Shown here one piece after another: positions 36,605-38,884 of a stretch of 43,626 nucleotides of DNA. The stretch comes from a virus, in the IMG/VR virus record IMGVR_UViG_3300042691_037514, positions 1 to 43,626 of that record, one strand, 5' to 3'. The notes beneath the pieces are model-generated. The model was not told the origin of the DNA, did not search any database, and worked only from the letters and a program-made list of their open reading frames with translations. The first letter of the stretch is position 1, and the number at the start of each line of letters is the position of its first letter. Made by a program: the position numbers and the translations under genes.

Positions 36605-36826
36605 ATGCGCCTATTCGAATTCCACTGTAAGCGATGCGAATCCTACGTCGATTCCGCGGAGCCGGTCGTTATCTGCCCGAATTGCCAGAGTGAGGAAATC
36701 ACCGTCACCTACTACGAAGAGATGACGATTCGGCGATTAGTTCGTAGAATGGCGGACATTGAGGCGGAATTGAAACGCATCATCGCACTAATCGACGAGG
36801 ATGATCACGAGGCGACGGATCATTGA
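36605..36826 (+). CDS. Com-like zinc-ribbon protein
   Basis: A 73-residue protein with CKRC at residue 8 and CPNC at residue 24, a zinc ribbon with 12 bases-equivalent residues between, followed by a charged helix (IRRLVRRMADIEAELKRII). Mu Com, a translational activator of the mom gene, is a similarly small zinc-ribbon protein beginning with CxxC. Size and position before a GNAT gene fit, but the Com identity is inference. FmdB-type ribbons are an alternative. Confidence 0.55.
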   Translation: MRLFEFHCKRCESYVDSAEPVVICPNCQSEEITVTYYEEMTIRRLVRRMADIEAELKRIIALIDEDDHEATDH

Positions 36827-37020
36827 GGGAGAAGAGTTACATCAATTGGATCTGCCGGAGTTGTCACTGCTTCAATCTCATCGAACGAACGCATTGCCGA
36901 CACTGCGGAGGAGATAAACTTGGAAACCACCGCCCAACCCAACCAACCAGTAATTCATTGCCGATACGACCGACTGGTCCCGGTGGGGGAACTACGGCCG
37001 TACCCAAAAAATCGGAATGA
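36823..37020 (+). CDS. RanBP2-type zinc finger protein
   Basis: A 65-residue protein with TTG start overlapping the previous stop. W9-x-C11-x2-C14-x3-N18-x6-C25-x2-C28 matches exactly the RanBP2 zinc-finger pattern, which in eukaryotes binds single-stranded RNA or ubiquitin. The remaining residues are a Pro/Thr-rich tail that overlaps the ParB-like gene by about 100 bases. That overlap means part of the tail may be non-functional. Confidence 0.55.
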   Translation: MREKSYINWICRSCHCFNLIERTHCRHCGGDKLGNHRPTQPTSNSLPIRPTGPGGGTTAVPKKSE

Positions 37021-37486
37021 GCATAGCCCGGAGCAGATAGCACGCCTCGCACTTCTGTTGAGGTATCAAGGAATCCGCGCGCCGATAGTGGTGGCGAGTG
37101 ATCCGTATTGCTGGATTGCAAAAGGTCACGGCACGCTAGAGGCGATAAAGTTTAACGGGTGGACGCACGCGCCGGTTGTGGACCAGCACTTTGAAAGCGA
37201 GGAGCAGCTATACGCGTACGTGCAATCGGACAACGCGATTGCAGAATGGGCTCGGCTGAACATTGAGGGTATCAACGCGGACCTACCCGACCTCGGCCCT
37301 GACTTCGATATCGACATGCTGGGGATAAAGGATTTCGTACTCGAGCCGGCGGAAAAGGACGAGCCGGCACCACTAGACTTGTCGGAGCAGTTGTTGGTGG
37401 TGGTAGAGTGCCAAACAGAGATTGAGCAACGGGAGATTTTTGAGGAGTTGGTCGGAAGGGGATTAAAATGCAAAGTCATGTCGTAA
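36920..37486 (+). CDS. ParB-like nuclease-domain protein
   Basis: A 188-residue protein, TTG start after GGAGGAGAT. LVPVGELRPYPKNRNEHSPEQIARLALLLRYQG and GHGTLEAIKFNGW match the ParB/Srx nucleotide-binding core. CTP binding and hydrolysis or nuclease action occur in the family. There is no partner ParA. Stand-alone ParB-like proteins are found in phages beside DNA-modification genes. It overlaps the ATPase gene by 19 bases. Confidence 0.82.
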   Translation: METTAQPNQPVIHCRYDRLVPVGELRPYPKNRNEHSPEQIARLALLLRYQGIRAPIVVASDPYCWIAKGHGTLEAIKFNGWTHAPVVDQHFESEEQLYAYVQSDNAIAEWARLNIEGINADLPDLGPDFDIDMLGIKDFVLEPAEKDEPAPLDLSEQLLVVVECQTEIEQREIFEELVGRGLKCKVMS

Positions 37487-38151
37487 GACTCACAAGTGAA
37501 GTTCCTCTAACTTTCCGCACGCAAAAGGCTGCGGACAGCGTGAATCTTAATATTAAAGAAAAGAGCGTGCACGAGCTCAAAGTGCTCGCTGATTTCGAAT
37601 CGCCGTTTTCAGTTGGGGTGATTGTCGGATCAAGTGGTAGTGGAAAGACGACACTGGCGAAACAACTCTTTGGTATTGAGGATTACAAATTAGACCTGAC
37701 TCGCCCAATCATTGAGCAATTTCCCCACGACATGCCTTATGACGAATGCGTTGATGCCCTGACGGGGGTTGGCCTCTCTTCGATCCCTTGTTGGATTCGA
37801 CCGGCGTACACGCTTTCAAATGGGCAGCGGGCGCGTGCGGAGGCGGCTCTTAGGATTGCCACCGCAAAGCCGGGGGAAACTATAGTTTTCGACGAGTGGA
37901 CCTCTACTGTGGATCGCACCGTCGCACAAATCATGTCACATCGGCTACAAAAGGCGGTACGGGAAAAGGGGTTGCGTGTTGTGGTCTGCGCCTGTCACCA
38001 CGACGTGGTGCCGTGGCTAAACGCTGATTGGGTTGTTGATTGCAACACGGCGGAATTCTCAAAAAAAAAAGCCCACGACCAACCATTGAATTTACCGTCC
38101 GGGAGTGCGACCGAAAATCCTGGTCGTATTTTAGCAAGTATCACTATTTAA
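37468..38151 (+). CDS. ABC-type ATPase, short (unshifted) product
   Basis: A 227-residue protein. Walker A GSSGSGKT (54-61), signature LSNGQ (116-120), Walker B TIVFDEW (138-144) and the switch histidine near 177 are all present, an ABC ATPase head without membrane partners. GGAAGGGG precedes the ATG. Its last 26 residues, after KKK at the A10 tract, look non-native compared with the domain. COG2401 proteins fuse such an ATPase to an acetyltransferase, which lies here in the -1 frame. Confidence 0.75.
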   Translation: MQSHVVRLTSEVPLTFRTQKAADSVNLNIKEKSVHELKVLADFESPFSVGVIVGSSGSGKTTLAKQLFGIEDYKLDLTRPIIEQFPHDMPYDECVDALTGVGLSSIPCWIRPAYTLSNGQRARAEAALRIATAKPGETIVFDEWTSTVDRTVAQIMSHRLQKAVREKGLRVVVCACHHDVVPWLNADWVVDCNTAEFSKKKAHDQPLNLPSGSATENPGRILASITI

Positions 38152-38594
38152 ATTCTAATCTGCCGTTTGGGAAAATTTACTGCTTTGGCCTTTTCCGAGG
38201 CGACGACCAAATAGGCTTTCAGTGCTTTGCTCACTATTCCCTAAATAAAAGCCGAGAAACACTCGTCCATTCGAACCGGGTGGTGGTTCATCCCGATTAC
38301 ATCGGCGTAGGTCTGGGCATAAAATTGGCCACCGAGGGTGCACGCATAATGCACGAGCGCGGGAAGCGAGTCTGGGCTAAATTCACAAGCCCCGCGATGT
38401 ATCGCCAGCGCATCGGGCACCCTAACTGGAAATTCCTCGACCAGAAAAGGGTAACAGCAAAAAAGCAGGGCGGATCCTTTCGGGCTGTGACCTGCAAGGC
38501 GAGTGACGGGCCGAAAAGCACCGCTCGCCGAAACGAAGTGAAGCTTTGGGGTGTTAAATACTACTGGTTTGAATACGTGCCGACCCAGCGTTGA
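37468..38594 (+). CDS. ABC ATPase-GNAT fusion made by -1 slippage
   Basis: Slipping back one base on A10 (38061-38070) joins ATPase residues 1-201 to 174 residues of the -1 frame, giving about 375 residues. The downstream frame then reads SPRPTIEFTVRECDRKSWSYF and matches the GNAT-type acyltransferase part of COG2401-like proteins (ABC ATPase fused to acetyltransferase). A programmed or transcriptional slippage, or a one-base assembly error, would give the same fusion. Confidence 0.62.
38040..38594 (+). CDS. GNAT-family acyltransferase domain (Mom-like candidate), -1 frame
   Basis: The frame is open from 38040 (TTG) with no good ribosome binding site, so it is probably read as the extension of the ATPase. 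The segment KSWSYFSKYHYLNSNLP, then VVHPDYIGVGLGIKLATEGARIM, fits GNAT motif A (Q/R-x2-G-x-G/A region: YIGVGLG). Mu Mom, which makes N6-carbamoylmethyladenine, is a GNAT relative; this gene may modify DNA or RNA bases. Acceptor and donor are unknown. Confidence 0.6.
   Translation: MQHGGILKKKSPRPTIEFTVRECDRKSWSYFSKYHYLNSNLPFGKIYCFGLFRGDDQIGFQCFAHYSLNKSRETLVHSNRVVVHPDYIGVGLGIKLATEGARIMHERGKRVWAKFTSPAMYRQRIGHPNWKFLDQKRVTAKKQGGSFRAVTCKASDGPKSTARRNEVKLWGVKYYWFEYVPTQR
38059..38070 (+). promoter_or_regulatory. A10 slippage site at the ATPase-GNAT junction
   Basis: Codons of the ATPase frame read TCA AAA AAA AAA GCC, giving the A-AAA-AAA heptamer used for -1 shifts, as in the tail chaperones. The GNAT frame continues without stop through this tract. 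Confidence 0.6.
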
Positions 38595-38884
38595 GCCCCC
38601 GCCCAATCCACGGCGGGGGACTTCTCGGCGATCTCAAACGCGAAGCATCTCGGCGTGGTTATAAACACAGAGTTTCGTATTGCTCGCGGCCTATCTATAT
38701 ATCTCACTCTGCGCAGCCTACAGACGAGGTACACACCATGGCGGTAGTGCAGGATCATCACCCGCGGTTTACGTGCATAAACCTCGTGGTAGTACGGGAT
38801 ATCCCGCCTGTACTCCACCCTTTTCACCCCGCTCGCCACCCGCTCGAAAAAGAACTTAGTGGTCGTTAACGTAACTACTCGCAT
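38561..38884 (-). CDS. ASCH-domain protein, convergent to the GNAT gene
   Basis: A 107-residue protein. FERVASGVKRVEYRRDIPYY near residues 13-32 matches the ASCH signature (SGxKxxEyR). It continues with a beta-rich fold VMILHYRHGVYLVCRLRRVRYI. ASCH/PUA-like domains bind RNA or modified nucleosides; YqfB hydrolyses N4-acetylcytidine. It overlaps the GNAT 3' end by 34 bases. The proximity to an acyltransferase may reflect a shared modification pathway. Confidence 0.65.
   Translation of the reverse strand: MRVVTLTTTKFFFERVASGVKRVEYRRDIPYYHEVYARKPRVMILHYRHGVYLVCRLRRVRYIDRPRAIRNSVFITTPRCFAFEIAEKSPAVDWAGAQRWVGTYSNQ

Follow-up and report, generated by a model that had tools for sequence, protein, structure and literature searches.

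The ATPase-GNAT gene and its junction

The viral contig IMGVR_UViG_3300042691_037514 from IMG/VR (43,626 nt, analysed over its whole length and referred to here as the window) contains a module at positions 36605-38884 in which an ABC ATPase and a GNAT acyltransferase domain are encoded on the plus strand between 37468 and 38594. All of the open reading frames (ORFs) named in an initial annotation of this module were found at or near the positions given there, and both of these domains were recovered; however, their assignment to two separate genes did not hold. The ATPase frame (37468-38151) encodes a product of 227 aa, including a 26-aa C-terminal tail, that matched PF00005 (E=4e-6) and phrog_11143 (E=1.5e-52) and has intact Walker A (GSSGSGKT), signature (LSNGQ), and Walker B (VFDE) motifs and the His of the CHHD motif. 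The GNAT domain lies in the -1 frame relative to the ATPase at 38070-38594 (phrog_11143, E=2e-14; Pfam GNAT, E about 0.002); the ORF initially assigned to it, 38040-38594, opens at a TTG codon at position 38040. The single profile phrog_11143 (357 aa) spans both domains, the ATPase at profile positions 5-197 and the GNAT at 197-327. Since this profile covers the two without a gap, the ATPase and the GNAT are parts of one protein with a frame change between them.

Homology passed from one frame to the other exactly at TC-A10-GCC, a run of ten A residues at 38061-38070 that is read in the ATPase frame as TCA AAA AAA AAA and contains the heptamer A_AAA_AAA. A net -1 shift within this run is predicted to yield an ATPase-GNAT fusion of about 375 aa (37468-38594). 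The stretch that follows (38071-38148) is dual-coded, specifying the tail AHDQPLNLPSGSATENPGRILASITI in the ATPase frame and the N-terminus of the GNAT in the -1 frame. It leads into the sequence TTA A (38148-38151), in which the Leu codon of the GNAT motif YHYL (38148-38150) holds the stop codon of the tail, TAA (38149-38151).

We compared 231 loci, namely the window, 54 viral contigs, 80 bacterial or archaeal genome contigs, 80 further viral contigs, and 16 annotated phages; 207 non-redundant loci were used for the junction statistics. They represent phages and prophages with hosts from at least Pseudomonadota, Planctomycetota, Actinomycetota, Bacteroidota, Spirochaetota, and Bacillota. The fused relatives, in which the ABC ATPase is followed by the GNAT within one protein family, are 40-58% identical. 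The ATPase and the GNAT were in the same frame in 204 of the 230 related loci, while 24 had the GNAT at -1 and 2 had it at +1. Most loci with a split register carry an A7-A12 or T9 run at the junction, and their ATPase-only product ends in I-[T/I]-I or a close variant, the exceptions being the Streptococcus and Lactococcus phages, which have C5/T5 runs, and loci L060 (A_AAG_GGC), L070 (A_AAA_AAG), and L146 (G_GGA_AAG).

An AlphaFold2 (AF2) model of the fused relative L072, from Psychrobacter (predicted local distance difference test score, pLDDT, 90), has the ATPase ending at residue 198 and the GNAT beginning at 214; the slip codon, at residue 202, thus falls in an interdomain loop. The solved folds nearest to this model were nucleotide-binding domains of ABC transporters, and the nearest viral model was that of the full-length protein of the Leptospira biflexa phage LE4 (template modelling score, 0.93). 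The model of the short form from the window (pLDDT, 88) showed the C-terminal segment of the tail as a short strand, at low confidence.

In published Streptococcus, Lactococcus, and Oenococcus phages, the gene is annotated as 'ABC iron siderophore transporter' or 'ABC-transporter' and accompanied by a separate or truncated GNAT ORF (L059, 3827-4896; L061, 3986-5040; L066, 3402-4471; L060, 3977-5037). The annotated GNAT proteins of L059 and L066 lack the N-terminal HYL motif. These siderophore-transporter labels and split GNAT ORFs are annotation artefacts of the recoding. The candidate slip site of the Streptococcus and Lactococcus phage loci is CAGGTTTTTCRATWYCCCCAC.

Putative slip signals and the conserved tail frame

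The junctions of the 207 loci were assigned to an SD-like (Shine-Dalgarno-like) sequence followed by 3 nt and a slip codon (149 loci), poly-A (22), CTT_C or a similar site without an SD-like sequence (20), and poly-T (8); the signal was unclear in the other 8. In most fused loci, GGAGG or GGGGG precedes, at a distance of exactly 3 nt, a CTT or GTT codon that is followed by C or T. The strict form, SD-NNN-[CG]TT-Y in frame, was present in 130 of the 185 same-frame loci, compared with 0.6 expected (maximum, 4) on synonymous codon resampling. Among 37 near relatives of the window that have the SD-CTT signal, synonymous constraint reached its gene-wide peak at the slip codons AGG (37/37), CTT (37/37), and CGG (35/37), with observed/expected ratios of 5-6 against a median of 1.1 and an expected identity of 0.17-0.21. 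None of 132 fused loci had a start codon (ATG, GTG, or TTG) behind the SD-like sequence in the GNAT or tail frame, and we therefore rejected internal initiation behind the conserved GGAGG and concluded that this sequence does not serve for initiation.

The window itself lacks the SD-CTT signal and has the A10 run instead. This run has the length (about nine or more A or T residues) of genes with transcriptional slippage, and its A_AAA_AAA corresponds to the heptamer of dnaX-type -1 frameshifting. Runs of A9 or T9 and longer occurred at 30 of the 207 junctions, whereas 207 kb of other sequence from these genes and the regions flanking them contained only 4. Long A runs were present at the junctions of isolate and metagenome-assembled genome (MAG) loci, namely L029, L076, L079, L083, L106, L109, L150, L159, L197, L208, and L209. 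Poly-A and poly-T loci were found in both the fused and the split register; the direction of RNA polymerase slippage is not kept among orthologues (PMC3711429). An X_XXY_YYZ heptamer was present in frame 0 in 18 of 21 split loci, including L070 and L146, where 12 would be expected from the amino acids.

The second frame, hereafter the tail frame, is +1 relative to the GNAT and is the ATPase frame in the window. Its stop codon fell within the codon for the HYL Leu of the GNAT in 205 of the 207 loci, compared with 86 expected from the codon usage of each gene; at other L-[SNTDH] pairs a stop was present in 35%. Except in two loci, the HYL Leu was never encoded by CTT or CTC and the next Ser never by TCN. 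Parsimony on a FastTree tree required at least 81 codon changes at this site, with the stop being lost just twice. In all 207 loci, the final 24 codons of the tail frame were uninterrupted (58% on synonymous resampling), and the frame was open from the slip site to the stop in 149 of 149 (94.5 expected). Upstream of the slip site it was open in 75 of 149 loci (59.7 expected); this is only moderately above expectation, and we therefore rejected the tail frame as an independent small ORF. The -1 frame downstream of the slip site was closed more often than expected, being open in 31 of 149 loci (46.8 expected).

The C-terminus of the tail is conserved as -I-[T/I]-I, the tail of the window ending in ITI, and the length of 26-30 aa found in most relatives includes the 26 aa of the window. 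The Tyr of the HYL motif was encoded by TAT in 202 of 207 loci (122 expected) and, where the GC content at third codon positions exceeded 75%, in 46 of 47, compared with 33% TAT overall. This codon keeps Ile as the last residue of the tail. The codon two before the Tyr was similarly biased, and the middle His codon was without bias. These codon biases argue for selection on the C-terminal sequence of the tail.

The SD class accounted for 26 of 27 genome contigs from Pseudomonadota, 22 of 23 from Planctomycetota, and all 10 from Actinomycetota. The four Bacteroidota genomes had poly-A (three) or G_GGA_AAG (one) and no SD+CTT signal, which was also missing from three Bacteroidota phages (L063, L067, and L071). 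Recognition of SD sequences has been reported to be absent from the ribosomes of Bacteroidia (PMC9976891). Because the Bacteroidota loci lack SD+CTT and most loci with other named hosts have it, the slip signal seems to track host decoding in this sample, which is small and structured by kinship. On the tree, 11 changes were needed among the SD, poly-A, and poly-T classes.

Some loci departed from these patterns. L068, one of the two loci without the HYL stop, has a tail frame that closes 12 codons later; its protein QAX98348.1 is cited in PMC7824862 as that of Tenacibaculum phage pT24, and the record is Aeromonas phage AsFcp_2. A subfamily (L182, L183, L184, L186, L190, L202, L204, L214, L216, and L228) shares the junction CAAAAAAAAAATAGACC, with TAG directly after the run in one frame, and slippage there could yield three products; the run is A11 in L214 but A10 in the loci akin to it. 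The slip site is CTT_AGG_C in L217, L167, L069, and L062, preceded by an SD-like sequence in L217, L167, and L069, and is identical to the +1 heptamer of yeast Ty1, CUU_AGG_C (PMC5009743).

Proposed recoding at the domain boundary

Taken together, these comparisons suggest that the gene at 37468-38594 very probably undergoes programmed recoding at its domain boundary to give two products, and selection on both proteins is well supported by the codon patterns. We infer that both are produced and what kind of slip is responsible. In the window, standard decoding would give the 227-aa ATPase with its tail, and slippage on A10, by RNA polymerase and/or as a -1 ribosomal shift on A_AAA_AAA, would lead into the GNAT frame and to the fusion. 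The situation would be reversed in most relatives, where the fusion would be the default product and the GGAGG located 3 nt before CTT or GTT would drive a prfB-like +1 shift to the ATPase with a tail of 26-30 aa. Because no significant structure was found downstream of A10 and runs occur in both registers, we favour RNA polymerase slippage in the window, with the -1 ribosomal shift as an alternative or an addition. If the A10 model is correct, replacing the run with AAGAAGAAG would change the product ratio. On balance, we also lean towards the view that the two-product output has been held by selection while the recoding device was repeatedly swapped to suit host decoding, among an SD-stimulated +1 shift that uses no stop codon, slippage on A or T runs, and perhaps further kinds of slip, and that the tail, which shares its coding sequence with the catalytic GNAT motif, is functional in a new ATP-driven base-modification machine.

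A purely ribosomal shift in the window would yield the same two proteins from a homogeneous rather than a heterogeneous mRNA, and we give it roughly one chance in three. The in-frame heptamers of the split loci speak for such a shift, but they are little enriched once the amino acids are considered; moreover, runs of 9-12 residues, T9-T10 among them, in both registers are typical of slippage (GeneTack, PMC3711429), and the lack of a downstream stem-loop argues against efficient structured -1 programmed ribosomal frameshifting. The open TTG start at 38040, upstream of A10, would be consistent with the ATPase and the GNAT being separate proteins, the latter made from this codon or one nearby by translational coupling, as would the split of the gene by annotators in Streptococcus, Lactococcus, and Oenococcus phages. 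We consider this very unlikely given the in-frame fusion in 204 of 230 relatives, the missing start codon after the conserved SD-like sequence in either relevant frame, and the selection that acts on the stop and the C-terminus of the tail whether a locus is fused or split.

It is slightly less probable still that the A10 run is a sequencing or assembly error or that the gene is broken, even though it comes from a single contig with no second copy among the viral contigs, since long A runs recur at the same junction in other isolate and MAG loci and in the window the stop of the tail, its ITI ending, and the catalytic motifs are all preserved. The ParB gene that adjoins the ATPase-GNAT gene, and the terminase gene that often follows it, might point to a junction conserved as a DNA or RNA element, such as a ParB-binding site or a packaging signal, rather than for recoding. 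This explanation, to which we assign hardly any weight, does not account for openness being specific to one frame, for the fixed position of the stop, for a tail ending in -I-[TI]-I, for poly-A or poly-T taking the place of the motif at this position, or for the Bacteroidota pattern.

Several points weigh against recoding as proposed here. Both products are predictions from sequence, and the signal classes were defined after inspection of the data. The resampling treats loci as independent, kinship being handled only in the FastTree parsimony. The signal was not clear in 8 of the 207 loci, and a further 20 have CTT_C or a similar site with no SD-like sequence. The +1 signal of the relatives has a sense codon rather than a stop codon in the A site. 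RNA structure downstream of A10 was not significant (z, -0.9), which leaves the window without the stimulator of dnaX-type frameshifting, and the A10 run is known from one contig, a search of viral contigs for a second copy having found none. The role in DNA modification, finally, rests on domain logic.

To our knowledge, few programmed frameshifts are deeply conserved in prokaryotes, those of prfB and dnaX being the best-known cellular ones. The signal of the relatives resembles that of prfB (release factor 2, RF2) in its +1 direction and in the 3-nt spacing between an SD-like sequence and the CUU slip codon that follows it (PMC5009743, PMC3711429); however, a sense codon (UGG, UGU, CGG, CAA, and others) occupies the A site in place of UGA, there is no RF2 feedback, the +1 shift would yield the shorter product, and the window has A10 instead. 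As in dnaX (tau/gamma), two products would share the ATPase, an A run serves as a slip site, and the mechanisms differ by lineage, whereas here the tail of 26-30 aa has a conserved C-terminus and is dual-coded with an acyltransferase, and SD-CUU with a +1 shift is commonest. If confirmed, the ATPase-GNAT gene would add a deeply conserved frameshift to the few in prokaryotes, would correct gene annotation in Firmicutes phages, and would offer, at one homologous site, a natural experiment on the mutual replacement of recoding devices, of which there are at least three. We found no earlier report of recoding in ATPase-GNAT genes in the open-access literature, and a double reading kept by differing slip signals across phages seems not to have been described previously.

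Neighbouring genes and possible function

The gene upstream of the ATPase (36920-37486, plus strand, TTG start) encodes a protein of 188 aa with a ParB/Srx-like domain. Its initial identification as ParB-like was upheld by matches to phrog_498 (E=1e-21) and phrog_620 (E=6e-16); the window protein itself gave E=0.065 with PF02195, which its homologue in L056 passes. A ParB gene was located upstream of the ATPase-GNAT gene in 170 of 188 testable loci. The end of the ParB gene overlaps the start of the ATPase by 19 nt (37468-37486), and similar short overlaps in many relatives suggest that the two genes are translationally coupled.

On the opposite strand, a 107-aa ASCH-like protein (38561-38884, minus strand) is encoded convergently and overlaps the end of the GNAT. 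It contains the motif VASGVKRVEYR, in which the GxKxxExR pattern appears as SGVKRVEYR, and matched PF04266 below the cut-off (E=0.027). Its identity was confirmed by an iterative search via relatives, which reached the annotated ASCH proteins located beside the GNAT in L066 and L059 (E about 1e-6); the L066 protein itself passes PF04266. An ASCH-type neighbour was present in 18 of 177 loci, convergent in about ten and codirectional in others; both it and ParB recur in phages from many phyla. It often overlaps or adjoins the end of the GNAT, which argues for a functional tie to the ATPase-GNAT gene.

The two small ORFs that begin the module had been read as a Com-like zinc ribbon and a RanBP2-type finger and, with the genes downstream, as part of a nucleic-acid modification module comparable to Mom/Com of phage Mu. 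The first (36605-36826, plus strand) gave weak zinc-ribbon matches but no similarity to Mu Com (BLASTP, E=4; no Com model among its Pfam matches). The second (36823-37020, plus strand), which overlaps the ParB start, matched PF00641 below the cut-off (E=0.005). Neither was found in any of the 206 other non-redundant loci, and we rejected both as members of the module; across the other loci, the ParB gene was regularly present, the ASCH gene sometimes, and the zinc-finger ORFs never. The presumed relation of the GNAT to Mom was not supported by profile comparison with Mu Mom (hhalign probability, 0.3%), in which the Mom relatives retrieved were too close to yield a deep Mom profile. A Mom/Com-like DNA protection cassette is accordingly a very improbable reading, although the GNAT matched the Mom Pfam model PF25680 weakly (E=0.02, below the cut-off), a Mom model ranked 43rd by fold, and a small zinc ribbon lies upstream. 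The two systems are alike in the GNAT superfamily, in being phage-borne, and in suspected nucleic-acid acylation, but the present one has an ABC ATPase and ParB as partners and no Com.

A modification role is plausible for the ParB and ATPase-GNAT part of the module. The ATPase-GNAT pairing was earlier predicted to acylate a DNA nucleobase (Iyer/Aravind; PMC7824862), and that system, represented by phrog_11143, has the same domain pair, phage spread, and predicted role. Recoding is not described there, whereas here we find a recoded junction and predict a short ATPase product whose tail is conserved. Domains of the ASCH/PUA type are considered to be readers of modified bases (PMC12839542). We regard it as about an even chance that the ATPase-GNAT protein acts in nucleic-acid acylation. 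An ATP-driven acylation complex would then work with ParB, and ASCH, where present, would read or remove the mark.

Since ABC ATPases work as dimers, the number of GNAT domains per dimer would depend on how short and long chains are mixed, and the ratio of ATPase-only to ATPase-GNAT products would determine dimer composition. This idea, tentatively drawn by analogy with tau/gamma of dnaX and rather less probable than the acylation role itself, would give the predicted modification enzyme a subunit logic. COG2401 is an ABC-type ATPase fused to a predicted acetyltransferase in the same domain order.

The window ATPase (37468-38148) also matched mad3 of the MADS defence system in PADLOC (E=4e-14), with coverage limited to the region of the signature and Walker B motifs; this may hint that a modification-linked defence system contains a related ATPase. 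A tRNA gene is located upstream of the ParB gene in Pasteurella and Streptococcus phages (L056, 886-961; L059, 2841-2930; L066, 2721-2799).

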